From assembly GCA_015486375.1 (NCBI GenBank), contig WFRR01000127.1:1-33948 (forward strand): DNA of 33,948 nt. Reading direction: 5' to 3'. The notes under the pieces were generated by a model that did no database searches, was not told the origin of the DNA, and was given only the letters and a program-made list of their open reading frames with translations. Below, one piece after another: positions 97 through 27,626 of the stretch (positions are counted from its first letter, which is position 1; each line of letters starts with the position of its first letter). The position numbers and the translations under genes were made by a program. The DNA is from Thiotrichaceae bacterium (GTDB lineage Bacteria > Pseudomonadota > Gammaproteobacteria > Thiotrichales > Thiotrichaceae).

Positions 97-1059
97 GTGC
101 ATAGTTTTGACTATCGCATCGAGACAATAAAGCAAATTGAGGAGCTGGATAAAACTCAAATACAAGCACAGTATGAACAACAAAATTTACAAATTAACCT
201 TAATAATGTCAACAATGACAATACTAATTTTAAGCAAGATAATGCTAAATTAGAAAAAGAGAATAACGAATACAAAGATACGATTCATTCATTTAATATC
301 AGTGAGCTTAAAGAACGACAAGAGCGACAAGATTTAGAAATCACCTTAAAGCATAAAAACAATACGGTTCAGCAACTTAAACAAGACAAAGTTAGTTTAC
401 AAGAGGAACAGCAAAAACAAAAACTAGCACTAGATGCATTAAGTGAGGTTGAACATAATAATGATGAATTAAAGCAAGAACTACAAAAACAAAGTTCGCA
501 GGCACTTGAACTTAAAGCAGAAAAAATTCACCTAGAAAAACTAACAAACACCCAAAATCAAGAGCTTGAGGTCTTATCTAAAACAACCTCTGAAAGAAAT
601 AGGTTACAAGAAGAGCTACAATACCAAAGTGAGCGATTTGATCAACTTAAACAAGAAAAAACTACACTTGATGGATTTAATCAAACCCAAAAACAGGAAA
701 TTAAAGGTTTAGTTGAAATAAAGCAGCATAGAAATAAGTTGCAAAATGAGATTCAAGCATTACAGGATAAATATAGTGAGCTAAAAATCAATTTAGCGAA
801 TTCGCAACAACAGAATAATTTATTAAATGAATCATATACTGAACTGAATATTAATCATGAAACATTGCAAACTCAATCTTCATCTAATACAGAAAAAGTT
901 GAAAAACTTGGTATTAGCAATGCTAAATTAAAAAGTAATTTCAATCAATTAGTTGATGATAATAATAATTTGATTGATCGTTTACGTGCTGTTTCTAGTG
1001 TGGTGGCTGCAGTGGGTATTCATGAAGATGCTATTTATAAAGCCTATACCAAAAAGTAA
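97..1059 (+). CDS. Long coiled-coil protein with three 45-residue tandem repeats
   Basis: This 320-residue protein is almost entirely coiled coil, rich in Gln, Lys, Glu, Asn and Leu, with no signal peptide or membrane segment. Residues 94-138, 139-183 and 184-228 form three consecutive repeats of exactly 45 residues. Each begins LK(Q/A)(D/E)K and shares an (N)xLQ(E/N)E-like stretch near position 30. A fourth copy starts at 229 and decays. The last 25 residues are different and hydrophobic (SVVAAVG), possibly a capping or binding tail. An in-frame TAA at 79-81 limits the start; GTG 97 is the only early start but has no clear Shine-Dalgarno, so a later start or a 5'-truncated gene cannot be excluded. 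No family is recognised. It precedes a membrane coiled-coil protein and a MamK-like actin, so a structural or filament-linked role is plausible but inferred from position only. Confidence 0.75.
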   Translation: MHSFDYRIETIKQIEELDKTQIQAQYEQQNLQINLNNVNNDNTNFKQDNAKLEKENNEYKDTIHSFNISELKERQERQDLEITLKHKNNTVQQLKQDKVSLQEEQQKQKLALDALSEVEHNNDELKQELQKQSSQALELKAEKIHLEKLTNTQNQELEVLSKTTSERNRLQEELQYQSERFDQLKQEKTTLDGFNQTQKQEIKGLVEIKQHRNKLQNEIQALQDKYSELKINLANSQQQNNLLNESYTELNINHETLQTQSSSNTEKVEKLGISNAKLKSNFNQLVDDNNNLIDRLRAVSSVVAAVGIHEDAIYKAYTKK

Positions 1060-1233: not shown

Positions 1234-1575
1234 ATGCCAAATACTGTTTTGATACTCCCTACAACAAAATCGTTGGGTTTATATTTAGTCTCTGGAACAA
1301 CATTACTTATTGGTGGCGTATTGGTATGGAGTATTTGGCAACAACGTCAAAAGTCTAAAAAAATTCAATCAATGCAGAATAAATTATCAGAACAGCTTGA
1401 TAATTTAGAAGCACAAAGAAATAAGACTACGCCATTACCCACAGAACAAAACAATTTAAAAGAAGCTAAAGCTTCTTCTATTCTTCAAACATCATACCAA
1501 TTAGCTAAAAACTCCAAAAATGATCTATTTGAACAACTAATCAGCGATAATATTGCACTAAGAGCAGCGAATTAA
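1234..1575 (+). CDS. Small single-pass membrane protein with cytoplasmic coiled coil
   Basis: This is a 113-residue protein. One hydrophobic segment spans about residues 14-35, followed by a basic cluster (R38, K40, K42, K43) that predicts a cytoplasmic C-terminus. A short coiled coil follows (about 42-62), then a polar linker. AAAGGA, about 9 bases before the ATG, is a plausible ribosome site. The stop codon is one base from the start of the MamK-like gene, so the two are almost certainly co-translated. It may anchor or adapt the actin-like filament at the membrane, a role filled by other small proteins such as MamJ in magnetosome systems, but no similarity to MamJ is visible. No family is recognised. 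Confidence 0.8.
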   Translation: MPNTVLILPTTKSLGLYLVSGTTLLIGGVLVWSIWQQRQKSKKIQSMQNKLSEQLDNLEAQRNKTTPLPTEQNNLKEAKASSILQTSYQLAKNSKNDLFEQLISDNIALRAAN

Positions 1576-1576
1576 A

Positions 1577-2584
1577 ATGTCTATTTATTATATCGGTATT
1601 GATTTAGGAACAAGTCAATCATCTATTACCACTTCGACAGGAAAACGTATTAGTTTAAAAACATGTATCGGTTACCCAAAAGACATTATTTCTCAGAAAC
1701 GCTTAGGTAAGGATTACTTATTAGGTGATGAGGCTTTAATAAATCGTCTTGCGGTTAACTTAATTTGGCCACTGGCGGAAGGTGTTATTATTCAAGATGA
1801 AGATCAAGCTTTGCAAGCAACTCAGATAATTTTACAAGAACTAATTAAGTCTAGTTTACCTGAAATGCAAGAAGGTGATCTCTTATACGCCGCAATTGGT
1901 GTTCCTGCACAAGCGAGTATTGTTAATAAAAAGGCTATTATCGAAATTACTAAAGATTTTATTGATAAAATTTTAATTGTAAGTGAACCCTTTGCTGTTG
2001 CTTATTCTTGTGGACGTTTTGATGAATGTTTAATTGTAGATATTGGTGCAGGAACAACTGACTTATGTAGAATGCATGGTTCATTACCTGAAAAAGAAGA
2101 CCAATTAACATTAAAAGTAGCTGGAAATTTTCTTGATAAGGAAATCAGTAAAAATATTTTAGCAGAATACCCTAATGTACAATTAACACCAAAAATTATT
2201 AAAGAAATAAAAGAAAAATTTGGTTTTGTCACTGATAATATTGATCCTATTAAAGTAGTGTTAAATACTCAAGGACTCCCTGATATTTATGATATTACCG
2301 CACTACTTAAAAAGGCTTGCTTAAATTTAACTAACCCTGTAAGTCAAGCAGTTCAACAATTAGTAGGTTCTTTTGATCCTGACTTTCAAGAAAAATTACG
2401 TAATAATATTATTATTGCAGGTGGTGGTTCACGTTTAAAGGGTATTGATCTTGCAATAGAGAAGAATCTTGAAATATATGGCGGTGGTAAAGTAGAATGT
2501 GTACAAGATGCTGAATATTGTGGTAGTGTAGGTGCGTTAAAAATGTGTATGGAAATGCCTGATGAATATTGGGAATGTATTTAA
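1577..2584 (+). CDS. mamK-like: MamK-like bacterial actin (filament-forming ATPase)
   Basis: This is a 335-residue actin/Hsp70-fold ATPase. The phosphate-1 loop is at residues 7-13 (GIDLGTS), the phosphate-2 region at 153-162 (VDIGAGTTD) and the adenosine loop at 281-285 (AGGGS). Beyond these shared folds it matches magnetosome MamK at distinctive places as I recall that sequence: GYPKD (32-36), SEPF (136-139), EDQ-TL followed by AGN (174-184), and an ending like PxxYW. MamK Glu143 and Asp161, needed for ATP-dependent filament dynamics, align with E137 and D155 at the same spacing. Length is near the family norm (about 347-360), and MreB, FtsA, ParM and DnaK fit less well. MamK forms cytoplasmic filaments that position magnetosomes. 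No other mam gene is visible here, so the cargo is unknown. It is one base downstream of a membrane coiled-coil gene, in very AT-rich DNA. Confidence 0.85.
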   Translation: MSIYYIGIDLGTSQSSITTSTGKRISLKTCIGYPKDIISQKRLGKDYLLGDEALINRLAVNLIWPLAEGVIIQDEDQALQATQIILQELIKSSLPEMQEGDLLYAAIGVPAQASIVNKKAIIEITKDFIDKILIVSEPFAVAYSCGRFDECLIVDIGAGTTDLCRMHGSLPEKEDQLTLKVAGNFLDKEISKNILAEYPNVQLTPKIIKEIKEKFGFVTDNIDPIKVVLNTQGLPDIYDITALLKKACLNLTNPVSQAVQQLVGSFDPDFQEKLRNNIIIAGGGSRLKGIDLAIEKNLEIYGGGKVECVQDAEYCGSVGALKMCMEMPDEYWECI

Positions 2585-3385: not shown

Positions 3386-5410
3386 ATGTTATTTCTTATA
3401 GGTTTGCTAACTGGAGGAACACTACTTACAGGAGCTAAATTACGAAAAAATAACAATAAATTAGCAAATAATAAAGAACATACTGTTGATTTAAAAGATA
3501 AGGTGCTAATAAAAAAAGAACCGAAGGATATAGTAGAAAAAGATCATAACTTACTTATTTCTACTACATCACTAGGCTTTATTATTTCTGGACAAATATT
3601 ATTTTCTCCTTTAACTTTTATTGGCGTTACAGGACTTATTTATCTTGTCTGGCCAACTTGGAAACAAGCCTATTATGATATAACTCAGAAAAAACGTTTT
3701 ACACGTATGGTACTAGAAGCCATTATATTACCTGGATCAATTTTACTTGGTCAATATTTTATTGTTGCACTTTCCTATTCTTTTTTATACTTTTCGTTAA
3801 ATAAATCAGCGAAAGCAAAAGATAATGTAAGTAAAAATTTAAATAAAATATTCACTCATCCTTCTAACCGTCTAGTTTATGTTATACGTGATAATGTCGA
3901 GGTCGAGTTATTACTAAGTGATGTACAAAAAGATGATATTTTAGTTATTGGGGCAGGTGAGACCATTCCTATTGATGGTACTATTATTAGAGGTCATTCG
4001 ACCATCGATCAACAACATTTAACAGGTGAATTTAAATCTATTGAGAAACAAGTTAATGATTATGTGTTTGCTTCAAGTTTACTTTTAAGTGGACAAATTC
4101 ATGTCTGTGTTGATAAAACAGGGAAAGAAATACTTTCTAATCAAGGTACTCAGATACTTAATGAAATGACTCAGTTCACGGATCATTTAGAATTACGAGG
4201 TACAGATTTAGGAAATAAATTATCACTTCCTTTATTTTTATTGGGAAGTGCAACGAGTGCCATGAAGGGTGTAAAAGCAGGAATGGCCATTGTTTGGATG
4301 CCATTAGATGACGCACTTTATTCAATGGGACCATTAAGTGTATTAAATTACCTTAATATAGCTATGAAACACAATATCCTTATTAAGGATGGCCGAACTT
4401 TAGAAATCTTACGAAAAGTTGACACATTTATTTTTGATAAAACAGGAACGCTAACTAAAGAAATTCCTCTTGTTGCAAAGATACATAATTTTCGTTCTAG
4501 CTCTCAAAAAGATATTTTATATTATGCTGCTGCTGCTGAACAAAAACAAGAACATCCCATTGCACTTGCTATTTTAAAAGCCGCCTCTATTCACAACATT
4601 AAATTACCTTCCATAACAGATAATGCTTATATAACAGGCTATGGAATAACTGTAATGTTAGAGAACGAGGAAATTCAGGTTGGAAGCTATCGTTTTATGG
4701 AAAAATTATCAATTAAATTTCCAGATAATTTAAATACTATTAAGCTAAAAGCCGATGATTCAGGTTATTCCTTAATCTATATAGCAGTTAATAACAATAT
4801 TATCGGTATAATAGAGCTGCATACACAGTTACGTGCTGATACAGTTTCTACTATTGACACATTGCAGCGTTTAGGTCATCGAGTTTGTATTATCTCTGGT
4901 GATCATGAAAGTCCTACCCAACATTTAGCCAAACAGTTAGGCATTAAGCATTATTTTTCTGAGATATTACCACAAGATAAATCAACTATTATTAAAAATA
5001 TGCAAAAAGAAGGGCGAGTTGTTTGTTATATAGGTGATGGTATTAATGATACCATTGCATTAAAACAAGCTGAAGTTTCTATTTCGTTACAGGGTGCGTC
5101 TTCACTTGCAATAGATACTGCTCATATTATACTAATGGATGGTGAAATTAAACAATTAATTAAACTTATTACATTAGCGAAAGAATTGGAAAAAACACAT
5201 AGGAAAATCATCTTATCCAGTGCAATACCAAGTATTATTATTGTTGGTGGGGTGCTTTTTGTTCACTTAAGATTAACAGCTAGTATTATCACCTATATAA
5301 GTAGTATGGCCATGAGCCTTAACTATGCTATGTTTCCTTTACTAAAGGATAATTACTCCACTCAGAAAGAGAAAAATTCGCACAGTTTAGATGAAGAAAT
5401 TAAAAAGTAA
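3386..5410 (+). CDS. P1B-like P-type ATPase with degenerate ion motif (MPL)
   Basis: This is a 674-residue membrane ATPase. Catalytic motifs are intact: actuator T213-G214-E215, phosphorylated D351 in DKTGT, the heavy-metal-class HP pair H390-P391, and G550-D551-G552-x2-D555. Hydrophobic segments occur before the actuator (about 52-85 and 108-140), before the phosphorylation domain and at the C-terminus. The N-terminus is basic with no Cys-x-x-Cys metal-binding domain. The transmembrane motif that binds metal in P1B pumps (CPC, SPC or TPC) reads M305-P306-L307, without cysteine, although the following segment and ILIKDG are conserved. The substrate may therefore not be Cu, Zn or Cd; a hydrophobic or non-thiophilic cargo, or a regulatory role, is possible. 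A good AGGAGA site precedes the ATG. It lies 74 bases after the transferase gene and is probably in the same operon. Confidence 0.85.
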   Translation: MLFLIGLLTGGTLLTGAKLRKNNNKLANNKEHTVDLKDKVLIKKEPKDIVEKDHNLLISTTSLGFIISGQILFSPLTFIGVTGLIYLVWPTWKQAYYDITQKKRFTRMVLEAIILPGSILLGQYFIVALSYSFLYFSLNKSAKAKDNVSKNLNKIFTHPSNRLVYVIRDNVEVELLLSDVQKDDILVIGAGETIPIDGTIIRGHSTIDQQHLTGEFKSIEKQVNDYVFASSLLLSGQIHVCVDKTGKEILSNQGTQILNEMTQFTDHLELRGTDLGNKLSLPLFLLGSATSAMKGVKAGMAIVWMPLDDALYSMGPLSVLNYLNIAMKHNILIKDGRTLEILRKVDTFIFDKTGTLTKEIPLVAKIHNFRSSSQKDILYYAAAAEQKQEHPIALAILKAASIHNIKLPSITDNAYITGYGITVMLENEEIQVGSYRFMEKLSIKFPDNLNTIKLKADDSGYSLIYIAVNNNIIGIIELHTQLRADTVSTIDTLQRLGHRVCIISGDHESPTQHLAKQLGIKHYFSEILPQDKSTIIKNMQKEGRVVCYIGDGINDTIALKQAEVSISLQGASSLAIDTAHIILMDGEIKQLIKLITLAKELEKTHRKIILSSAIPSIIIVGGVLFVHLRLTASIITYISSMAMSLNYAMFPLLKDNYSTQKEKNSHSLDEEIKK

Positions 5411-15318: not shown

Positions 15319-18300
15319 GTGACTGAATTAATCGATCTTTGGGAGGCAACCCGTACAATTATCAGTTTACGTAATCAAGCTCCCATGCTTAAAAGCGTAA
15401 AAAATGTACAAGCTTCTTTTCCACTATCTTTATCACAAGAACGCTTATTTGCTTTAGATTCTTTACACCCCGACAAAGCGTTGTATAACATACCTTATGC
15501 TTTTCATTTAAAAGGTACGTTAGATGTTTCATTACTTAGCCAAAGTTTAACGCATATTGTAAAGCAACAAACTGTTTTGAGAACACATTTTGAAGTAACT
15601 GATGGGCATGTTAAGCAACGTATTCAAGCTCCACAAACGATAGAATTAGAAGCCATTGATGTATCCCGTAAACCATTACAACAAATAAAACAACAAATTA
15701 TTACAGCACTACGTCAATCACTAAACTTACATACAAAATCTCCTGCATTTCGCTATTGTTTATATCAACTAGCAGCTAATGAATATGTTTTAGGATTTAC
15801 TTTTCATCATATTATTTCTGACTATTGGTCAGAAAATCTATTTTTTAAAGAATTGAGTGAGCTATACAACCAAAAAAAATCGAATAAATTAGCAAAACCA
15901 CAAAGTATTACATATACTGATTTTTCACATTGGCAACGTCAATGGTTTTGTCAAAAAGGTGTGTTAGATTTTTTATTACAGTATTGGCATCCACAATTGC
16001 AAGGTTTAAATCAGCCTGATTTACCAGTAGAGAATTCACTTAATAATGAACGACATATTGCCTTTGAAAAAGTAAATTTGTCAGTGAGTCAAGTAAGCGA
16101 ATTTAAAACGCTGGCACGTCAACAAAAAGTTCAATTATTTAGTGTATTACTGAGTGCCTTTACGCAATTACTTGCCGAACATCTTAATACCACGGATATT
16201 GGTGTGTTTAGTCCAATAAGCAATCGTAATCGTATTGAATTACAAAAATTGATGGGGGATTTTTCTAATCCAGCAATTTTACGCACCGATTTATCAGGTA
16301 ATCCTACACAGAGTGAATTATTAAAGCGAGTTGGACGAGTCGTATCAGGCGCGATTGCTCATCAGGATTTACCTCTTCAGTTGATTAAAGCCTCTATTCC
16401 TCTAAAATTACCCCAAACGAGTTTTTCTTATTTAAATATTCCACAAGAAACAATTAGCTTCAAAGCATTAGAAGTTGAAGCATGGGATTTAGGTCTAGGT
16501 ACCCTTGATTTCGATTTATTTTTATTATTGATACAGCAAAAAGGGAAAATAACTGGGTATTTAAAATACGATACACGCTTATTCTCATCAGCAACGATTC
16601 AGAGCTTGATTGAAAAATTTAATCGCCTCCTTGACAAGATGGTCGCGCATCCTGAGCAAACCCTTGAACTAAAGGCGCAAGTTTCTCCTTTGGAAAAGAG
16701 CAAACAAGCACTCTTGCTCCCTATTCCAGAACTGATTAAACAAGTACAACAACCATTAGAAACATCAAAAGCATCCAGTCAAAAAAGCAAGTTATGGCAA
16801 CAACTACAACAGATGTCTACAGCAGAACGGCAGGTACAATTAAAGCAAACTATTAAAACTGAAGTGCAGTCCATTGCAGGTGTACTTCCTACGGATGAAC
16901 AGGGATTTTTTGATTTAGGTCTTGATTCATTAACTTCGATTCAATTAAGTAATCGCTTGTCGTTAGTCTTAAAGACTTTCTTAGCACCCACGCTGACATT
17001 AGAACACCCGAGTGTGAGTCGCTTGGCAGAATACTTAAATAACACACTATTTGAAGAAGAAGTAGTAACAACAAATAGCTCGACAGCGCAGTCAACAAAC
17101 AATGAAGCCATTGCTATTGTAGGTATGGGCTGTCGCTTTCCAGGTGGTGCACATAACTTAGAGAAATTTTGGGACTTATTATATCAAGGACAAGAGACAG
17201 TGACTGATATTCCTGCCTCACGCTGGTCGATTGATGATTATTATGACCCAGAAATGGGTACACCTGGCAAAATGTATATACAACAAGCCAGCTTTTTGCA
17301 GCATCCGATTGAGGAGTTTGATGCACCTTTCTTTGGTATGTCTCCATTAGAAGCACAGCAACTTGATCCTAAACAGCGTCTATTATTAGAAGTAACCTGG
17401 GAAGCACTTGAAAATGCGGGAATTGCAACCGATGCTTTACCGAATCAAACAGGTATTTTTGTCGGTTTAATGGAAAGCGAAATTGGTCTAAAAACAGGTT
17501 CTGATGATGTCTATGCCACTACAGGCACATTGACTGCTATGTCAACAGGACGTTTAAGCTATTTGCTCGGTGTGCAAGGTCCTAACCTAAGTCTTGATAC
17601 AGCCTGCTCTTCTTCACTGGTAGCATTACACCTTGCGTGTCAGTCCTTACGTGCGGAAGAATGTGAGCTTGCGGTGACAGGCGGAGTCAATGTGATACTC
17701 TCTCCCGAATTAATGGTGAGTTTATCAGGCATGACTGCTTTATCACCTGATGGGCGTTGTAAAACCTTTGATGAAAAGGCGGATGGTTTTGGACGTGGTG
17801 AAGGCTGTGGCATTGTAGTCCTGAAGCGTTTATCTGATGCTGTTACTGCAGGGGATCAGATTTGGGCAACAATTCAAGGGTCTGCGGTTAATCATGATGG
17901 TGCGAGCAGTGGTTTAACCGTGCCAGATAAAGTGGCACAAACAGCGTTGATTCGTCAAGCCTTACAACGCGCTAACATCAGCGGCAATGAGGTATCTTAT
18001 GTTGAAGCCCATGGCACAGGCACTAAATTAGGTGACCCGATTGAAGTACGTGCCTTGGCGGATGCCTTGGGGGAACGCGATACGCCTTTGAGTATTGGTT
18101 CAGTAAAAACCAACTTAGGGCATTTAGATGCCAGTGCAGGCATTGCGGGGCTCATCAAAGTTGCACTGAGCTTGCACCATAAAATTATTCCACCGCATCT
18201 ACATTTTAAACGTGCTAATCCTTTAATAGATTGGGATAATCTCCCGTTTCAAATTCCTTTAGAAGCAATACCGTGGCAAAGCAATCATACACCACGTATT

Positions 18301-21300
18301 GCAGGGGTTAGTGGCTTTGGTATGGGCGGCACTAATGCTCATGCCATTTTGCAGCAAGCACCTAGCCAAAGGCACAGTGAAGCATTAAGCAAAGATCCAA
18401 CGACAACAGAACGTTCTGCACATGTATTATTGTTAAGCGGAAAAACTGAGGCAGCATTGACGGATCAAATCGCACAATATTTAGCGTATTGTACCGCACA
18501 CCCTGAAAGCAATCTTGCTGATATGTGCTATACCGCCAACACAGGGCGGACGCATTATGCTCATCGTGTTGCTATAGTGGCACAGGATATTGCCGATTTA
18601 ACAAAAAAATTACGCGCGGCTGCAATAGATCAACACCCAAAACCTATACAAGAAACAGCACAGATTGCCTTTTTATTTACAGGACAAGGCTCACAATATT
18701 GGGGGATGGGACGGGAATTATTTGAAACTGAGCCAGTGTTCAAAGACATCCTAAAACAGTGTGATAAGATATTGATGTCCTGTGCAGAGATGCCACTCTT
18801 AGAAATCCTTTACGCTGAAAAAGAACAAGCAACAGAGCAACTGTTCCACACGAAATATACCCAACCTGCTTTGTTTGCACTTGAATATGCGCTCGCAAAA
18901 CTTTGGCAGTCATGGGGAATAAGTCCCACAGCACTGATTGGACATAGTGTGGGGGAATATGTTGCTGCCTGTATTGCAGGTGTGTTTAGTTTAAAAGAAG
19001 GCTTAACTTTGGTTGCAGAACGGGGGCGCTTAATGCAGGCATTGCCTGCTAATGGCACGATGGTCGCAATCCAATGTACTAAAGATACTATTGAACCGAT
19101 TCTAGCTGATTATCGACAACAAGTGACGATTGCAGGTTTTAATGCTCCGCAAAGTTTGGTGTTATCAGGTAAAAATACCGCTATCGAAGCGATTATTACA
19201 ATCTTGGAAAACAAACAGATTAAATGCTATCCCTTGAAGGTGTTTCATGCCTTCCACTCTGCTTTAATGGAGCCAATGTTAGCGGAATTTGCAAAGGTTG
19301 CTGAAACGATTGAATATAAAACACCTAACTCCCAGTTTAGCCTGATTTCCAATGTGACAGGCTCAGCCATTACCCATATTGATGCAGCGTATTGGGTTGA
19401 TCATATTCGTCAGCCTGTACATTTTGCACAGGGAATGGAAACATTAGCAACATTAGGTATTGATACCTTTATTGAAATAGGAGCAAAACCGACCTTAGTT
19501 GGTCTAGGACAGCAGTGTACTAGTGCATCACAACAGATGACATGGTTACCTAGTTTATACTCTAAGGAGTCAAGCGATTGGGAGCAATTATTAACAAGCC
19601 TTAGTGAGCTTCATGTACGTGGAGGTCAGGTTGACTGGCAAGTGTTGGATGCGGCTTATTCACGCCGTAAACTATCATTACCCACCTATCCCTTCCAACG
19701 CCAACGTCATTGGGTCGATAAACCTGCGGCCGCTTTTAACCCACTAGCACAAACAGGTCATCCCTTATTAGGTGAGCGTTTACCTACCATTGCCAATAGC
19801 GATAGAGTGGTGTTTCAAAATCAACTTTCTGCACTTTCTCCACACTATCTGAATGATCACCAAGTCTATGGTCAGGTGATTACCCCTGCTACCGCATATT
19901 TAGAAATGGCATTATTCGCCGCGCAACAGGTCGTTGGCGATGAAAACTATTGCCTCCAGAATATAGTGCTATTACAGCCATTGGTGTTATCAACCAGCGA
20001 TGAGAGTCAGGTTCAATTACAACTAACCCCTAGCGCGACAGGCTATCAATGGAAAGTATTTAGTCTTAAGCCTCATAGCAATGATGAATGGGAGTTGCAT
20101 ATTGAAGGCGAACTAACGATCTCTATTCAAAATACAAGCACTGCCGATATGAATAATGACACACTCAGCCAAGTGCAACAGCGTTGTACTGAGGAAATGT
20201 CCTTAGAAGATTATCATAATGCCATTCCTGATGATCTTTATTACGGTGATGATTTCCAAGTTTTACAACAGTTATTTAGCGGTGACAAAGAAGCCTTAGG
20301 CTTGATTGAGCTTTCTACACACTTAGATCCTCATGCCTATAACCTTCACCCTGTCGTACTCGATGGTTGTTTACGTGTTGTTCAAGCAATTAATTTTGAA
20401 GATAACGATGCACTGTATTTGCCGTTTAGTTTTGATCAGATTGAATTATTTAGCAACAGCCCATTACGTCATGTATGGAGTTTTGTGCAATGGCGTACTG
20501 ATGTCACGGGTACACGGCTTGTCGATGTGACGTTGTTTGCGCCAGACGGATCGCAAGTCGCAAAAGTCACAGGTTTTAGTTTGCGTCAAGCAAATCGCCA
20601 AGCAATGACAGGTTCTGCGTTGCGACACGATTATTTGTATGAATTAGCGTGGCAAGATGCACCACAGGCTAATACCTCACCTTATGCAACGACTAAAGGA
20701 CGTTGGTTAATCATCGCCGATGCACAGCAACCACAAGCAAATGCCTTAGTGGTATTATTACGTGCCAGGGGGGAAACGGTTGAGTTTTCTCAAACGATGC
20801 AACAGTCCTTGAGTGATTATCGTGCGGTGGTTTATTTTGCTACTCCTTCTTCTCTTCATCAGCAAGCCATGCCTGAAACCGTATTGGATATTTCCTGTCA
20901 GGCACTGAATTTTGTACAAAACCTTATTGAGGCACAGGCAAGTCCAGACCTTCATTTTATTATCCAAGAAGGATTAGAAGAATCAGGTTTATGGGGTTTA
21001 GGGCGTACCTTAATGTGGGAACAGCCTGATTTAAACTGTAAATGTTTAGAGATTAACGAACATACCTCAGCGGATACCTTATTTAATGCCTTGTGGTTTG
21101 CTGATAATGAAAACCAACTTAAATTAACTACTGATAGCGCACGCCAAATCGCACGCTTAACGCCGCTTAAGGCTAAAACTGATACTCAAACAGAACAATC
21201 TAGCCATGATTTCAAAGTACAACTTGAACGCTATGGTTTATTAGAAAGTCTGCATTTAGTCCCATTACAACGTCAAGCACCTGATGCACAACAGGTTGAA

Positions 21301-23298
21301 GTACAGGTACGTGCATCAAGCTTAAATTTTCGTGATGTCCTCAATGCGTTAGGAATGCTGAAATCTTATTATGACCCTGAGCTGGGTTTTGATGACCCTA
21401 AAAAACTTCCCTTTGGTTTTGAAGCGGCAGGCATTGTAAGTCGTCTTGGCAAGGACGTGCGTGATATCTGTGTCGGTGATGAGGTTATGGTTTGGCAACA
21501 TTTTGGTAGTCTTGCCTCCTTTATTACCGTGGATGTCTCATTAATCACTGCTAAACCCAAGCATTTAAGTTTTGACCAAGCAGCAACAATTCCTATTGTA
21601 TTTTTAACGGCTTATTATGCTTTGGTAAAATTGGCGGGTATAAAGGCAGGCGATAAGGTACTAATTCATTCAGCTGCTGGCGGTGTCGGTCAAGCAGCGG
21701 TTCAGATTGCTCACCATATGGGAGCTGAGGTCTTTGCAACGGCAAGTGAACCTAAGTGGGATTTCTTAGCTTCGCAAGGTATTCAGCATATTATGAATTC
21801 GCGCACGCTTGAGTTTGCAGAACAAATTAATACCCTAACGGATGGGCAAGGTGTTGATATTGTGCTTAATAGTTTGAATGGGGATTATATTAAAAAGAAT
21901 TTTGACAGTTTGGCACACAATGGACGCTTTGTTGAACTGGGTAAAATAGATACTTGGGATCAACAACAAGCCACACGCTATCGTCAGGATATTGCTTATA
22001 CTTGCTTTGATTGGTCTGAAATGCACAAAGCGATGAAATTAAGAGGACAACTCGAAACACTGTTTGTGCAGCAAAAACTTAAGCCATTACCTGCTAAGGT
22101 TTTTTCAATTAATGCAGTAGGTGATGCGTTTCAATTTATGGCAAATGCCAAACAAATTGGCAAAGTCGTATTATCCATCCCCGATCAACAATCGCAGGGC
22201 ATTAACATTGCAGCAAATCAGTCTTATTTGATTACAGGTGGACTAGGCGGTTTAGGTTTTAAAATTGCCCAATGGTTAGTAGTACAAGGTGCAACCCATT
22301 TAGTATTAAGTGGTCGTAGTCAAGCTACAACGCACACTCAACAGGCGATTGATGCTTTAGAAGCGGATGGTGTTCACGTTAAGGTTATGATGACAGATAT
22401 CTCAAAGGTTGAAGAAGTAGAGACCTTGGTTGAAGCCAGTCATGCTTTTGCACCTTTGAAAGGTATTATCCATTTAGCAGGGGTAGTCGATGACGGTATT
22501 ATTAGTCAACAAACTCCCGCACGCTTTGCGAAAGTCTTTGCGCCTAAAGTGCAAGGCAGTTGGTTGCTACATCAAACCTGTCAACATTTACCGTTAGATT
22601 TCTTTGTATGCTTCTCCTCACAAACCGCTCTGTTAGGCAATGGTGGACAGGCAAACTATGCTGCCGCTAATGCCTTTATGGATAGCCTTATGCAACAACG
22701 CCACCGTCAAGGACAAACGGGGTTAAGTATCAACTGGGGTGCATGGTCTGAAATTGGCATGGCAAAAGATTTAGTTGCAAATGATAAAGATGTGATTACC
22801 CCTGAAATGGGCGTTGCATTATTTGGGCTGTTATTACAATACGCAAAACCACAAGCAGGAGTTTTTCCTTATCGCTGGGAGGAATTTGCTAAAAAACTCC
22901 CTTCACTGACAGGTTTTTCTGTCTTATCAGGGCTTATTAAGCCGACAACGAGCAAAGAGCAATCTGTCAGCACGAGTCTACGTCAGAAAATTAGCCAAGC
23001 CGAGCTTGATACTCGTCTTGAGTTGATCAAAGCCTATCTTAAAACCAGTATCGAACCAATTGTGGGCAGAGTTCCTGAAGAAGATGATGGTTTTTTTGTA
23101 GCATTGGATATGGATTCCTTAAAATCGATTCAATTAACCAATCGTTTAGGGGCAGATTTAGAAGTCTCGGTATCGGTCACCACCATTTTAGAGCATTCAA
23201 GTATTGTATTATTAGCAGCGGTTTTACTGAAAAAACTAGGGTTTAGCCCCTTAGAAGAAGTGGCAATAGAAGATGATTATGAGCAAGGTGAACTATGA
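15319..23298 (+). CDS. Hybrid PKS: C-PCP-KS-AT-DH-ER-KR-ACP
   Basis: This is a 2659-residue megasynthase. Residues 30-460 form a condensation domain with H163-H164-x3-D168 followed by Tyr instead of Gly. A carrier with S537 (GLDSL) follows, without an adenylation domain. The ketosynthase has C763 (TACSSS), H898 (HGTGT) and H935 (GHLD). The acyltransferase has S1210 (GHSVGE) and H1310-A-F-H-S, the signature for malonyl-CoA. The dehydratase has H1514 (HxxxGxxxxP) and D1682. The enoylreductase (about 1965-2290) has its NADPH loop at G2121-G2124. The ketoreductase has GGLGGLG at 2307-2313, S2434, Y2447 and a VDD motif (B-type). The final carrier has S2600. No methyltransferase was found. It would add one fully reduced two-carbon unit after an amide-forming step on a carrier charged in trans. 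The GTG start is supported by AGGAG. The acidic tail fits the docking domain of the next protein, whose ATG overlaps the stop (ATGA). Confidence 0.95.
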   Translation: MTELIDLWEATRTIISLRNQAPMLKSVKNVQASFPLSLSQERLFALDSLHPDKALYNIPYAFHLKGTLDVSLLSQSLTHIVKQQTVLRTHFEVTDGHVKQRIQAPQTIELEAIDVSRKPLQQIKQQIITALRQSLNLHTKSPAFRYCLYQLAANEYVLGFTFHHIISDYWSENLFFKELSELYNQKKSNKLAKPQSITYTDFSHWQRQWFCQKGVLDFLLQYWHPQLQGLNQPDLPVENSLNNERHIAFEKVNLSVSQVSEFKTLARQQKVQLFSVLLSAFTQLLAEHLNTTDIGVFSPISNRNRIELQKLMGDFSNPAILRTDLSGNPTQSELLKRVGRVVSGAIAHQDLPLQLIKASIPLKLPQTSFSYLNIPQETISFKALEVEAWDLGLGTLDFDLFLLLIQQKGKITGYLKYDTRLFSSATIQSLIEKFNRLLDKMVAHPEQTLELKAQVSPLEKSKQALLLPIPELIKQVQQPLETSKASSQKSKLWQQLQQMSTAERQVQLKQTIKTEVQSIAGVLPTDEQGFFDLGLDSLTSIQLSNRLSLVLKTFLAPTLTLEHPSVSRLAEYLNNTLFEEEVVTTNSSTAQSTNNEAIAIVGMGCRFPGGAHNLEKFWDLLYQGQETVTDIPASRWSIDDYYDPEMGTPGKMYIQQASFLQHPIEEFDAPFFGMSPLEAQQLDPKQRLLLEVTWEALENAGIATDALPNQTGIFVGLMESEIGLKTGSDDVYATTGTLTAMSTGRLSYLLGVQGPNLSLDTACSSSLVALHLACQSLRAEECELAVTGGVNVILSPELMVSLSGMTALSPDGRCKTFDEKADGFGRGEGCGIVVLKRLSDAVTAGDQIWATIQGSAVNHDGASSGLTVPDKVAQTALIRQALQRANISGNEVSYVEAHGTGTKLGDPIEVRALADALGERDTPLSIGSVKTNLGHLDASAGIAGLIKVALSLHHKIIPPHLHFKRANPLIDWDNLPFQIPLEAIPWQSNHTPRIAGVSGFGMGGTNAHAILQQAPSQRHSEALSKDPTTTERSAHVLLLSGKTEAALTDQIAQYLAYCTAHPESNLADMCYTANTGRTHYAHRVAIVAQDIADLTKKLRAAAIDQHPKPIQETAQIAFLFTGQGSQYWGMGRELFETEPVFKDILKQCDKILMSCAEMPLLEILYAEKEQATEQLFHTKYTQPALFALEYALAKLWQSWGISPTALIGHSVGEYVAACIAGVFSLKEGLTLVAERGRLMQALPANGTMVAIQCTKDTIEPILADYRQQVTIAGFNAPQSLVLSGKNTAIEAIITILENKQIKCYPLKVFHAFHSALMEPMLAEFAKVAETIEYKTPNSQFSLISNVTGSAITHIDAAYWVDHIRQPVHFAQGMETLATLGIDTFIEIGAKPTLVGLGQQCTSASQQMTWLPSLYSKESSDWEQLLTSLSELHVRGGQVDWQVLDAAYSRRKLSLPTYPFQRQRHWVDKPAAAFNPLAQTGHPLLGERLPTIANSDRVVFQNQLSALSPHYLNDHQVYGQVITPATAYLEMALFAAQQVVGDENYCLQNIVLLQPLVLSTSDESQVQLQLTPSATGYQWKVFSLKPHSNDEWELHIEGELTISIQNTSTADMNNDTLSQVQQRCTEEMSLEDYHNAIPDDLYYGDDFQVLQQLFSGDKEALGLIELSTHLDPHAYNLHPVVLDGCLRVVQAINFEDNDALYLPFSFDQIELFSNSPLRHVWSFVQWRTDVTGTRLVDVTLFAPDGSQVAKVTGFSLRQANRQAMTGSALRHDYLYELAWQDAPQANTSPYATTKGRWLIIADAQQPQANALVVLLRARGETVEFSQTMQQSLSDYRAVVYFATPSSLHQQAMPETVLDISCQALNFVQNLIEAQASPDLHFIIQEGLEESGLWGLGRTLMWEQPDLNCKCLEINEHTSADTLFNALWFADNENQLKLTTDSARQIARLTPLKAKTDTQTEQSSHDFKVQLERYGLLESLHLVPLQRQAPDAQQVEVQVRASSLNFRDVLNALGMLKSYYDPELGFDDPKKLPFGFEAAGIVSRLGKDVRDICVGDEVMVWQHFGSLASFITVDVSLITAKPKHLSFDQAATIPIVFLTAYYALVKLAGIKAGDKVLIHSAAGGVGQAAVQIAHHMGAEVFATASEPKWDFLASQGIQHIMNSRTLEFAEQINTLTDGQGVDIVLNSLNGDYIKKNFDSLAHNGRFVELGKIDTWDQQQATRYRQDIAYTCFDWSEMHKAMKLRGQLETLFVQQKLKPLPAKVFSINAVGDAFQFMANAKQIGKVVLSIPDQQSQGINIAANQSYLITGGLGGLGFKIAQWLVVQGATHLVLSGRSQATTHTQQAIDALEADGVHVKVMMTDISKVEEVETLVEASHAFAPLKGIIHLAGVVDDGIISQQTPARFAKVFAPKVQGSWLLHQTCQHLPLDFFVCFSSQTALLGNGGQANYAAANAFMDSLMQQRHRQGQTGLSINWGAWSEIGMAKDLVANDKDVITPEMGVALFGLLLQYAKPQAGVFPYRWEEFAKKLPSLTGFSVLSGLIKPTTSKEQSVSTSLRQKISQAELDTRLELIKAYLKTSIEPIVGRVPEEDDGFFVALDMDSLKSIQLTNRLGADLEVSVSVTTILEHSSIVLLAAVLLKKLGFSPLEEVAIEDDYEQGEL

Positions 23299-26200
23299 AA
23301 CAAATTGAAATATTATTAGCAGAATTAAAACAATACAATATTACCTTATGGACAGAAAACCAAGTTTTGCGTTACCGTGCGCCTAAAGGTGGGCTCAGTA
23401 TCTCTTTTCGGGAACAAATTAAAGCCCATAAAGCGGATTTAATTACCTTTTTAAGTACTCAACAAGCTAGCAGTGAAATAGAAAATAGTACTGAGTCATT
23501 GCCACAAATCACTCCTGACCCAGAAGCTGCCTTTGAACCTTTCCCATTAAGTGCAATCCAGCAAGCCTATTGGTTGGGTCGGCAATCTCATCTAGATTTA
23601 GGCAACGTTGCTACTCAAGTATATCAAGAATGGTCGGTGGTAGACTTAGACATCGAACGGCTCAATTTAGCGTGGCAAAAAGTCATGGCACGTCATGCAA
23701 TTTTACGCACAATTGTAAAAGAAGATGGACAACAACAGGTATTAGCGAGTGTGCCTGATTATCAATTATCTGTGCATGAATTACCTCTGTTGGATGCGGA
23801 TGCAACAGCACAAGCATTAAGTAACATTCGTGATGAAATAAACGGTCATATCCACCAAGCGGGTGATTGGCCACTCTTTGATGCGCGGATTACTAAGCTA
23901 ACGGATACAACCCACCTGCATTTTTGCATGGATATGTTGATTGTCGATAGCTGGAGTATTGAGCTAGTGATTAAAGATTGGCAAACTTTCTATCTTGATT
24001 TGGATGCTCAACTACCCCCATTGGAACTCACTTTTCGTGATTATCGCGTGATGGATAAACACTTTGAAGAGACCTCTAGTACTTATCAATATGCAAAAGC
24101 GTATTGGATGGAGCGGATAGATAAGCTTGCCCCCGCGCCTAAATTACCCTTAGCAAAAAACCTCAACGAGATCGAAACACCACAGTTTACATGGACTGAA
24201 AAACGCCTGAGCGCACCGTTATGGAAAGCATTAAAAAGCAAAGCTGCCGCACATCATCTGCAACCTTCAGCACTCTTAGTCGCAGTATTTGCTGAAGCCT
24301 TAGGGCGTTGGAGTAAAACCCCACATTTGACCTTAAATCAAACCTTTTTTCATCGTTTACCATTTCATTCACAAGTCAATGAGGTCGCGGGTGAATTTAC
24401 CTCAACACTCTTAGTAGAGGTGGATAATCGTGAAGCTGCGCCCTTTATTAAACGTGTTAAGCAGGTGCAAGCACAAGCCTGGAAAGACTTAGACCAGCGC
24501 TATTTTAGCGGTGTGGAGGTATTACGTGAATTTAATCGTCGTCATAAAAGTTCAGAATTAATGCCTGTGGTATTTACCAACTTATTAGGTGTAAAAGCGG
24601 CATCTAATATTGTCTGGGGAGAGCGAGTACATCAATTGGCACAAACCTCACAAGTGTATTTAGATCATATTGTGCGTGAAATTGACGATGAACTCAGTTT
24701 AAACTGGAGTGCTATTGAAGACTTGTTTCCTACCGATTTATTGGAGGATATGTTCACCAGTCAATATCAGTTGCTAGAACGCCTTGCCACTGATGATGCC
24801 GCGTGGACAGAGTTATATCCTTTACAGTTGCCCAAAAAACAACGTTTACAACGTCAGCAGGTCAATGCAACTGAAACCACCGCGCCTGATGTACTATTGC
24901 ATGAGTTGTTTTTGCAACAGGCAAAACGAACTCCTAACCATATCGCGGTTATTAGTGCTGATAAAACACTTACCTATCAGCAACTTTATCAACAGGCAAA
25001 TCAGGTAGCACATTGGCTGCGCGATCAAGGGGTTGAACCGAATCAATTGGTTGCTGTGGTGATTGAAAAAAGTTGGCAACAAGTGGTTGCGGTAATGGGG
25101 ATATTAATGTCAGGGGGTGCGTATTTACCGATTGACCCTCAGTTACCCCATGAACGTCAAGCATATTTGCTAGAACAGGCAAAGGTGCGCTGTGTCGTAA
25201 CACAACAGAAATGGCAAGCGGTACTGGATTGGCCGATAGAACGCTGTCTAATAGTAACAATGCTAGACGATTCTATTTCGTTACCTGCATTAAATTCTGT
25301 GCAAAGCATTACTGATTTGGCCTATGTGATTTATACCTCAGGTTCGACAGGCAATCCGAAAGGGGTAATGATTGATCATCGTGGCGCAGTGAACACGCTG
25401 CTAGATATGAACGCACGTTTTAATATCACGGCTAAAGATCGTATGTTAGCGCTATCGGCATTAAATTTTGATTTATCTGTGTATGATATTTTTGGCCTAT
25501 TAGCGGTCGGCGGCGCAATGGTCATACCTTCACCCGATGGGCGGCGTGATCCGTCACACTGGAATGCGTTAATGCAGCAACATCACGTTACGCTATGGAA
25601 TACAGTGGCAGCATTAATGCAGATGTTGGTTGAATACCAAGCAGGTCAAGGGCAAAATACCACACAAACTGCCGCATTACGCTTAGTGATTATGAGCGGT
25701 GATTGGATACCTGTTGATCTACCTGATCGTATTCGAACATTGTATCCCAGCACAGAAATCACCAGTTTAGGAGGTGCAACAGAAGCCTCAATTTGGTCTA
25801 TTTATTACCCCATTACAACGGTTAATCCAAACTGGAAAAGTATACCCTATGGTAAGCCAATGGATAATCAGACCTTCTATGTCTTAAATGAACAATTAGA
25901 ACCCTGTCCTATTTGGCTAGCAGGACAGCTCTATATTGGCGGTATTGGGTTAGCATTGGGTTATTGGCAAGATAAAGAAAAAACCGATGCTAGCTTTTTC
26001 ATTCACCCGCGCACAGGTGAACGCTTATACAAAACAGGAGATTTAGGTCGCTATTTAGCAGATGGCAATATTGAGTTTCTAGGACGTGAAGATTTCCAAG
26101 TAAAAATTGGTGGACACCGCGTCGAACTCGGTGAAATTGAAACCCATTTGCTGAAACATAAGGCGGTACAAAAAGTCATTGTGGCGGCAGTGGGAGAAAC

Positions 26201-27626
26201 CCATCATGATAAACAATTAGTCGCCTATATTATTCCTAATGAAACAGGCTCAAACGCTGATGCAACTCCAGTCATTGATGAAACAACAGTGGATGAAGCC
26301 ATTCAAACTTTAGATCCTGATGAGGTACTTCGTGATCCTGTGGCGCGATTACAATTTAAATTAAAGCAATATGGTCTACGTCCATCCGATCATGCATCGT
26401 CTAATATAGTGTTACCTGAGGTAAAATTGGAGAAAAATGACTATCTTAATCGGCAAAGCTTTCATCAGTTTTTAGACGCTCCGATTGATATTCAACAACT
26501 GAGTCAATGTTTAAGTTGTTTAACGCCCTACCCATTTGATGACGCGGCTTTGCCAAAATACCGTTACCCCTCCTCAGGGAATTTGTATGCAATTCAAAGT
26601 TATTTATATATTAAACCTGAACGCGTCAATGGTATTGCAGGTGGTTTTTATTACTACCATCCGCTCAAGCATAGCCTGCAATTACTCTCTGCTGAGCCTA
26701 TGATAGAACAGGAGTTATACGGTGGCGGCAATCAAATGGTCTTTGATCAAGCGGCGTTTAGTCTATTTTTAATCGTAGAATACAACGCCATTAAACCTCT
26801 CTACGGGGATTATTCGCGTGATTTATGCTTAGTTGAAGCGGGTTATATGAGCCAACTATTAATGAGCGAAGTCACCGAACAGGCACTCGGTTTATGTCCA
26901 ATTGGTGGGCTTTATTTTGATCCATTACGAGAAAAATTTGGTTTAAGTGACAGCCATGAATTATTGCATAGCTTTTTAGGTGGTGGTATTGCTACAGAGC
27001 AAACACAACAATTAGAACAAGCACCGAGTATAACTACCAGTACAGCTTCATCAGATGTTGCCGATGCCAAAGAAGAAAGCACAGAAGAACCGCTCAGTGA
27101 ATGTTTACAAGCTTATCTTCGTGACAAATTACCGCATTATATGGTGCCTCATTTATATGTCGAACTGGCTGAATTTCCACTCACTGCTAATGCTAAAATA
27201 GATAGAAAGGCGTTACCACACCCTGATTTAAGCAAACAATCAACAGAGTTTGTTCAACCGACTAATGAATTAGAACATCAACTGGCTGAATCAGTACAAA
27301 AATTATTTAAGCTGAAGTCGATTAGCCTGCATGATGATTTCTTTAATTTAGGAGCAGATTCACTCGATATGGTGCAATTATATAATGAAATTCAAACGAC
27401 ATTTCAACGAGAAATAAAAATGGCTGATATTTTTAGCCATACGACAATCTATAAGTTAGCTGAATTCCTCAGTAAAGCTCAAATAAAAGAAACAGCATCG
27501 CCAACTAACATGATTCCAAGTTCAGACCTTAACTCTGAACAGATTGATCAGCTTTCAGTCAATTTAGACAATTTAACGGAAGCTGAGATCGAGTTATTAC
27601 TCACACAACTCGATGTTGAAGTCTAA
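23295..27626 (+). CDS. NRPS: docking-Cy-A(Ox)-PCP, cysteine-activating thiazole module
   Basis: This 1443-residue protein starts with a TubC-type docking domain (about 1-55). A heterocyclisation domain follows, with D213-x4-D218-x2-S221 in place of HHxxxDG. The adenylation domain (core YTSGSTG near 680) has pocket residues D726, L727, Y730, N769, I799, S801, L825, I833 and W834, plus K1301. This is one residue from the classical cysteine code DLYNLSLIWK. An FMN-dependent oxidase domain (about 1010-1240, with RYPSSGN at 1090-1096) is inserted between the main part and the last A-domain motif, the arrangement found in EpoB. The carrier has S1356. Together these would condense, cyclise and oxidise cysteine to a thiazole. 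The C-terminal tail (LTEAEIELLL) resembles short linker helices. It overlaps the PKS gene by 4 bases. Confidence 0.95.
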   Translation: MKQIEILLAELKQYNITLWTENQVLRYRAPKGGLSISFREQIKAHKADLITFLSTQQASSEIENSTESLPQITPDPEAAFEPFPLSAIQQAYWLGRQSHLDLGNVATQVYQEWSVVDLDIERLNLAWQKVMARHAILRTIVKEDGQQQVLASVPDYQLSVHELPLLDADATAQALSNIRDEINGHIHQAGDWPLFDARITKLTDTTHLHFCMDMLIVDSWSIELVIKDWQTFYLDLDAQLPPLELTFRDYRVMDKHFEETSSTYQYAKAYWMERIDKLAPAPKLPLAKNLNEIETPQFTWTEKRLSAPLWKALKSKAAAHHLQPSALLVAVFAEALGRWSKTPHLTLNQTFFHRLPFHSQVNEVAGEFTSTLLVEVDNREAAPFIKRVKQVQAQAWKDLDQRYFSGVEVLREFNRRHKSSELMPVVFTNLLGVKAASNIVWGERVHQLAQTSQVYLDHIVREIDDELSLNWSAIEDLFPTDLLEDMFTSQYQLLERLATDDAAWTELYPLQLPKKQRLQRQQVNATETTAPDVLLHELFLQQAKRTPNHIAVISADKTLTYQQLYQQANQVAHWLRDQGVEPNQLVAVVIEKSWQQVVAVMGILMSGGAYLPIDPQLPHERQAYLLEQAKVRCVVTQQKWQAVLDWPIERCLIVTMLDDSISLPALNSVQSITDLAYVIYTSGSTGNPKGVMIDHRGAVNTLLDMNARFNITAKDRMLALSALNFDLSVYDIFGLLAVGGAMVIPSPDGRRDPSHWNALMQQHHVTLWNTVAALMQMLVEYQAGQGQNTTQTAALRLVIMSGDWIPVDLPDRIRTLYPSTEITSLGGATEASIWSIYYPITTVNPNWKSIPYGKPMDNQTFYVLNEQLEPCPIWLAGQLYIGGIGLALGYWQDKEKTDASFFIHPRTGERLYKTGDLGRYLADGNIEFLGREDFQVKIGGHRVELGEIETHLLKHKAVQKVIVAAVGETHHDKQLVAYIIPNETGSNADATPVIDETTVDEAIQTLDPDEVLRDPVARLQFKLKQYGLRPSDHASSNIVLPEVKLEKNDYLNRQSFHQFLDAPIDIQQLSQCLSCLTPYPFDDAALPKYRYPSSGNLYAIQSYLYIKPERVNGIAGGFYYYHPLKHSLQLLSAEPMIEQELYGGGNQMVFDQAAFSLFLIVEYNAIKPLYGDYSRDLCLVEAGYMSQLLMSEVTEQALGLCPIGGLYFDPLREKFGLSDSHELLHSFLGGGIATEQTQQLEQAPSITTSTASSDVADAKEESTEEPLSECLQAYLRDKLPHYMVPHLYVELAEFPLTANAKIDRKALPHPDLSKQSTEFVQPTNELEHQLAESVQKLFKLKSISLHDDFFNLGADSLDMVQLYNEIQTTFQREIKMADIFSHTTIYKLAEFLSKAQIKETASPTNMIPSSDLNSEQIDQLSVNLDNLTEAEIELLLTQLDVEV

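Follow-up and report, generated by a model that had tools for sequence, protein, structure and literature searches.

A Bbp-clade actin of a Thiotrichaceae bacterium is encoded next to a putative membrane adaptor with a conserved C-terminal tail

We analysed a stretch of 33,948 nucleotides, hereafter the window, from the genome of a Thiotrichaceae bacterium (contig WFRR01000127.1), the assembly of which (GCA_015486375.1) comprises 2.67 Mb in 175 contigs and is 97% complete. Near the start of the window, two open reading frames on one strand, 1234-1575 (113 aa) and 1577-2584 (335 aa), are separated by a single base, the stop codon TAA at 1573-1575 being followed by an A and then by the ATG at 1577. 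The features of this region are as follows:

97 to 1059, forward strand: long coiled-coil protein of 320 aa, with no family match except a weak one to SMC
1234 to 1575, forward strand: putative adaptor gene, encoding a coiled-coil protein of 113 aa with one transmembrane helix and a conserved C-terminal tail
1279 to 1335, forward strand: predicted transmembrane helix, residues 16-34 of the 113-aa protein (hydropathy scan, mean hydropathy 1.8)
1519 to 1563, forward strand: conserved tail NDLFEQLISDNIALR, residues 96-110 of the same protein, in which N106 and R110 are invariant in 30 aligned tails
1577 to 2584, forward strand: Bbp-clade actin-like ATPase of 335 aa, assigned from family scores, nearest structures and tree
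1985 to 1987, forward strand: E137 of the actin, aligned with residue 143 of the MamK chain 5ljw
2039 to 2041, forward strand: D155 of the actin, aligned with residue 161 of the same chain

An initial annotation, made from the letters alone, had described an actin gene that is coupled to a gene for a small membrane protein with a coiled coil and lies after a coiled-coil gene. All of these elements were borne out, namely the one-base gap on a shared strand, the single transmembrane helix (residues 16-34) followed by a coil, and the 320-aa coiled-coil product of 97-1059.

The product of 1577-2584 scored 381.8 bits (E 2.4e-114) against the NCBIfam MamK model NF040964, just below its curated cut-off of 400 bits, and its scores against BeeR (199.5 bits) and MreB (75 bits), which have the actin fold in common with it, were both far lower. 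The nearest solved structures are those of Magnetospirillum MamK (E about 1e-76), and the AF2 fold of a Thiomargarita orthologue (locus L016; 68% identical to the window actin) matched best to the MamK filament 5ljv (Z 42.0, rmsd 1.5, 324 residues). Judged by sequence, the window actin is a MamK-family protein outside MreB, and the initial description of a MamK-type actin holds given the NF040964 score and the nearest structures; an MreB-like protein has its own gene in this genome, and a plasmid search returned a distant MreB-like protein as its sole result. E137 and D155 had been read as a mark of magnetosome MamK. They do align with MamK residues 143 and 161, but these we take to belong to the general actin ATPase site, so that the two residues argue for an active ATPase and not for MamK identity; the alignment stands, its specificity for MamK does not.

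In the phylogenetic tree, all 30 Bbp actins, including that of the window, formed one clade (support 99/99), within which the window sequence grouped with two sequences of its own family (99/82). The 12 Desulfobacterales magnetosome MamKs formed a separate clade (100/100), to which the Bbp clade is sister and in which it is not nested. A third Desulfobacterales MamK-family group was distinct from both Bbp and magnetosome MamK, the window actin stood apart from MamK of AMB-1 as well, and BeeR and MreB fell outside the MamK/Bbp group; with MreB as a far outgroup, the actin does not belong with MreB. The window actin is Bbp (“big bacteria protein”), a kind of actin already published in 2023 (PMC10580974). 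Two earlier claims fall here: the actin clade is not undescribed, and the tree makes it a sister of Desulfobacterales magnetosomal MamK and not, as had been proposed, a MamK derivative.

Bbp was described by Geelhoed et al. (2023; PMC10580974) from giant cable bacteria and from other bacteria of large size, with a similarity cut of at least 65% to the protein of Ca. Electrothrix gigas, whose bbp gene is accompanied by a Kelch gene and by a second, hypothetical gene that has no known domains. According to the same paper, the hosts are mostly large or filamentous, with exceptions also listed, and multicellular magnetotactic bacteria carry both Bbp and magnetosomal MamK. The present data match that description in the host groups (Beggiatoales, Thiotrichales, Desulfonema and multicellular magnetotactic bacteria) and in the placement near MamK; they differ in that no tail, transmembrane adaptor or receiver-type adaptor is described there. 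Relatives of the window actin at 64-75% identity were found in Thioploca, Thiomargarita, Parabeggiatoa, two members of the window's own family, and Desulfobacterales including Desulfonema magnum. Bbp occurs in Beggiatoales (20/43 genomes), in some members of the window's order, Thiotrichales (3/63 genomes), and in Desulfobacterales, and one genome (G150) has both Bbp and magnetosomal MamK.

In the 113-aa partner, the coil lies C-terminal of the transmembrane helix, and basic residues after the helix indicate that the C-terminal part is probably cytoplasmic. The tail comprises the last 15-20 residues, a helix with the pattern [LF]xxx[IV][IV]x[DE]NxxLR. For the Thiomargarita partner modelled alone, AF2 gave a transmembrane helix (residues 24-41), a coil, a low-confidence linker and a confident C-terminal helix. 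The window pair itself combines a C-terminal tail carrying the invariant N and R with an adjacent Bbp actin.

A tail-bearing gene lies directly upstream of the actin, on the same strand, in 22/30 Bbp loci; in L118 the tail partner is 2.8 kb upstream, the tail of L012 has Lys in place of Arg, and that of L009 has a C-terminal extension. Among all 4,754 stop-to-stop open reading frames of 60 codons or more in the loci compared, 33 matched the tail pattern near the C-terminus, and each of these (33/33) is the actin's immediate upstream neighbour; some of the scanned loci had supplied the pattern, so for those the scan is partly circular. Two profile searches, one with the whole partner and one with the tail alone, are less affected by this. 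With a profile of the whole partner (threshold E<1e-10), matches were found among Beggiatoales in 19/20 genomes with Bbp vs. 1/23 genomes without it (Fisher 5e-10, kinship not corrected for), in keeping with the expectation that the small gene accompanies the actin in relatives. Among Thiotrichales, the partner was present in 3/3 genomes with Bbp, one of which (G056) reached no better than 4.9e-5, its partner gene being disrupted in the assembly though its tail is intact, and the 60 genomes without Bbp gave nothing better than 6e-5. The pairing of actin and partner is far beyond chance. Partner distances correlate with actin distances (Mantel r 0.86, 0/5000 permutations); any two genes inherited together would, however, be expected to show such a correlation and such linkage.

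Some tail proteins lie away from the actin. A tail-only profile was run on whole genomes and found one unlinked tail protein each in G066 (Desulfonema magnum), G070, G071, G143 and G150, all of which have Bbp and lack an adjacent partner. These proteins, which were outside the profile, had E values of 8.5e-7 to 9.8e-5 and open frames of 347-374 aa with the tail at the C-terminus; in ten genomes that lack Bbp, the same profile found no match below E 0.15. In total, 29/30 Bbp actins have a tail protein somewhere in the genome, the exception, L111, being 140 bases from a contig end. The sole Bbp-less Beggiatoales genome with a partner (G086, 2.3 Mb), in which no actin was detected, carries an orphan copy, as does G064. 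In G064, G063 and G086 (L156, L172, L173, L163), additional or orphan tail adaptors are encoded apart from any actin gene, which suggests several adaptors per filament system.

The part of the protein that precedes the tail differs between lineages. Gammaproteobacterial partners share the layout of transmembrane helix, coil, linker and tail. Those of Desulfobacterales genomes with Bbp mostly start with a receiver domain (PF00072, E down to 1.5e-17), as the five unlinked proteins do, followed by a middle stretch that matches nothing in Pfam, then by a coil and the tail; within an invariant S-G-x-E-M, the usual phospho-Asp position is taken by Gly, which by alignment makes phosphorylation there unlikely. 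In Desulfobacterales magnetosome clusters, which contain MamB/M-, MamN- and MamE-like genes, the gene that immediately precedes mamK encodes the tail, here joined to a third N-terminus without clear transmembrane helix; the match is strict in 9/12 loci, and a tenth (L087) has Ala for Arg. These magnetosomal MamKs are like Bbp in combining an actin fold with an upstream gene for the same tail, and differ in their identity of 37-41%, their separate clade, their mam gene clusters and an adaptor with no obvious transmembrane helix. In one Planctomycetota locus, a coil protein with the tail is encoded upstream of the actin.

The tail is not a general feature of MamK: none was found in the fetched regions of six Desulfobacterales loci of the third MamK-family clade, nor, up to about 1.5 kb from the actin, in 18 loci drawn from across Desulfobacterota. 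The third-clade loci (L094-L098, L105), which had no strong magnetosome gene matches and no tail partner in the fetched region, have their actin genes next to a conserved gene (family 18) that resembles a cell-wall amidase. In some Desulfobacterota genomes (G638, G787, G686 and G729; L219-L220, L223-L224, L232-L235), two MamK-family actin genes lie close together, with no tail nearby.

Clade membership, co-occurrence, conservation of the tail and the change of N-terminus are direct observations, and binding of the tail to the filament, which we infer from them, is a good hypothesis. The reading we favour, and consider fairly probable, is a Bbp filament module with interchangeable adaptors, in which the tail would engage the Bbp/MamK filament and the N-terminus would be the cargo or anchor end. 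From its fold and conserved ATPase residues, Bbp would form ATP-dependent filaments like MamK. The membrane helix of the adaptor would anchor it, the cytoplasmic coiled coil would probably oligomerise it, and, after a flexible linker, the amphipathic C-terminal tail would dock on the actin. The exchangeable N-terminus would be a membrane helix, a degenerate receiver domain or, in magnetosome clusters, another module, and the anchored site would most likely be an internal membrane or a site at the envelope. A membrane adaptor had been proposed initially, and this role is plausible as a prediction; the neighbouring genes give no hint of the other cargo that had been proposed with it. The two genes are naturally fused by read-through in L016, and in an AF2 model of this fusion the tail helix was confident, but no more so beside the actin (block means about 71-83) than alone (71-91), with only four alignment rows covering the tail and partner-only rows misaligned onto the actin. 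Other observations that weigh against the reading are the lack of the tail near the other MamK-family actins and the tail proteins that lie apart from any actin in three genomes. We regard it as evenly balanced whether one portable C-terminal tail is a common docking code for Bbp and Desulfobacterales MamK actins, carried on varied N-terminal modules (membrane, degenerate receiver protein, magnetosome) and sometimes by several adaptors per genome.

Three proteins of magnetotactic bacteria, compared by description, serve as precedents for this reading and resemble the window adaptor. McaB of Magnetospirillum magneticum AMB-1, which has one transmembrane helix and a coiled coil and binds MamK (PMC13170167), is likewise small with one N-terminal transmembrane helix and a coiled coil, but differs in working together with McaA. 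MamJ of Magnetospirillum and Mg-1g50 of MV-1 are encoded directly upstream of mamK and tether the filament to the magnetosome (PMC10653835); they share with the window adaptor the gene position directly upstream of the actin, but are larger and lineage-restricted.

An alternative that we regard as unlikely is that Bbp and its transmembrane partner form an envelope or shape module comparable to MreB with RodZ or MreC, which would direct the synthesis of the wall in cells that are large or filamentous and would hold no cargo. The partner is a single-transmembrane coiled-coil protein, as this would lead one to expect, the Bbp hosts are mostly large or filamentous (PMC10580974), two loci of the window's family have genes for an OmpA-like protein and a transmembrane coil protein near Bbp, and L118 has an amidase-like gene near Bbp. 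However, the adaptor of Desulfobacterales genomes with Bbp has a receiver domain and no transmembrane helix, the same tail stands beside magnetosomal mamK, an organelle-positioning actin, and the window genome has an MreB-like gene of its own.

It is somewhat less likely again that the tail protein chiefly governs how Bbp nucleates or turns over, its transmembrane helix serving for placement alone and without any link to cargo. Such regulators exist, since MamJ tunes MamK turnover (PMC10653835) and McaA/McaB alter MamK dynamics (PMC13170167), and a degenerate receiver domain on the Desulfobacterales adaptors would suit this role; the tail, however, is joined to three or four N-termini that are unrelated to each other, and these look more like anchors than like one regulatory function.

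The genes around the pair were considered as further parts of the system. The C-terminus of the coiled-coil protein 97-1059 is 53.6% identical over 69 aa to the product of a coil gene in the sister genome G056 (L082, 15346-15552), which lies 5 kb downstream of Bbp and is its sole relative among the loci compared; 97-1059 may encode a third component, in the window's sub-lineage only. Downstream of the pair are genes for a phosphopantetheinyl transferase and a P-type ATPase, together with a PKS/NRPS locus that includes diaminobutyrate genes. The PKS/NRPS locus (15319-27626 and flanks) encodes condensation, ketosynthase, KR and DH domains, an FkbH-like protein, a sulfotransferase, a diaminobutyrate aminotransferase and decarboxylase, and a sulfatase. 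The P-type ATPase (3386-5410) is P1B-like and lacks the CPC metal motif, as do those of L115 (7089-9086 and 10497-12518, in actin-forward orientation); this family is expanded in Beggiatoales, where its genes are often beside PLP-decarboxylase or NRPS genes. We rejected the ATPase as a part of the system, or as a ferrosome-type FezB, since its family is large and spread through Beggiatoales whether or not Bbp is present, and the nearest copy seen lies beside a decarboxylase gene in a Bbp-less genome; for the same reasons we assign it to the biosynthetic locus. That the actin pair itself belongs to this downstream locus (P-type ATPase and PKS/NRPS cluster) is very improbable: Bbp has an ATPase of the family no more than 2 kb away in the window, L013, L014 and L115 (on both sides in L115), but no such ATPase is nearby in 25/30 Bbp loci, the family reaches up to 20 copies per Beggiatoales genome, Bbp-less ones included, and the closest copy seen (57.6%), that beside the decarboxylase gene, is in Bbp-less G101.

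The initial annotation had also placed the operon outside any magnetosome gene set, and this was upheld as far as a magnetosome gene search covering MamN and MamB reaches. No match to MamN was found in the 97%-complete window genome, and its best MamB-like match scored 201.8 bits, on a par with the non-magnetosome relatives (mostly 179-218 bits in gammaproteobacteria with Bbp, vs. 240-267 bits in positive controls) and thus at the level of an ordinary cation transporter. The window actin, scoring below 400 bits, falling outside the magnetosomal clade and lacking an accompanying MamN, is not a magnetosomal MamK by these measures. A relic of a magnetosome island, with MamK left after loss of magnetotaxis, would fit an actin of the MamK family, but it is largely refuted and the least credible of the alternatives, as Bbp is a clade of its own that coexists with magnetosomal MamK in G150, MamN is absent, the MamB-like score is ordinary, and many genomes conserve both the actin and its tail partner.

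Within the open-licence literature, the conserved tail of the partner and its exchangeable carriers seem to be undescribed. Bbp is an actin tied to very large bacterial cells, and the tailed partner of the favoured filament module is a first handle on how its filament is attached. The tail ties this actin of giant bacteria to the machinery of magnetosome positioning, and the partner makes the attachment of Bbp testable in cultured Desulfonema magnum.
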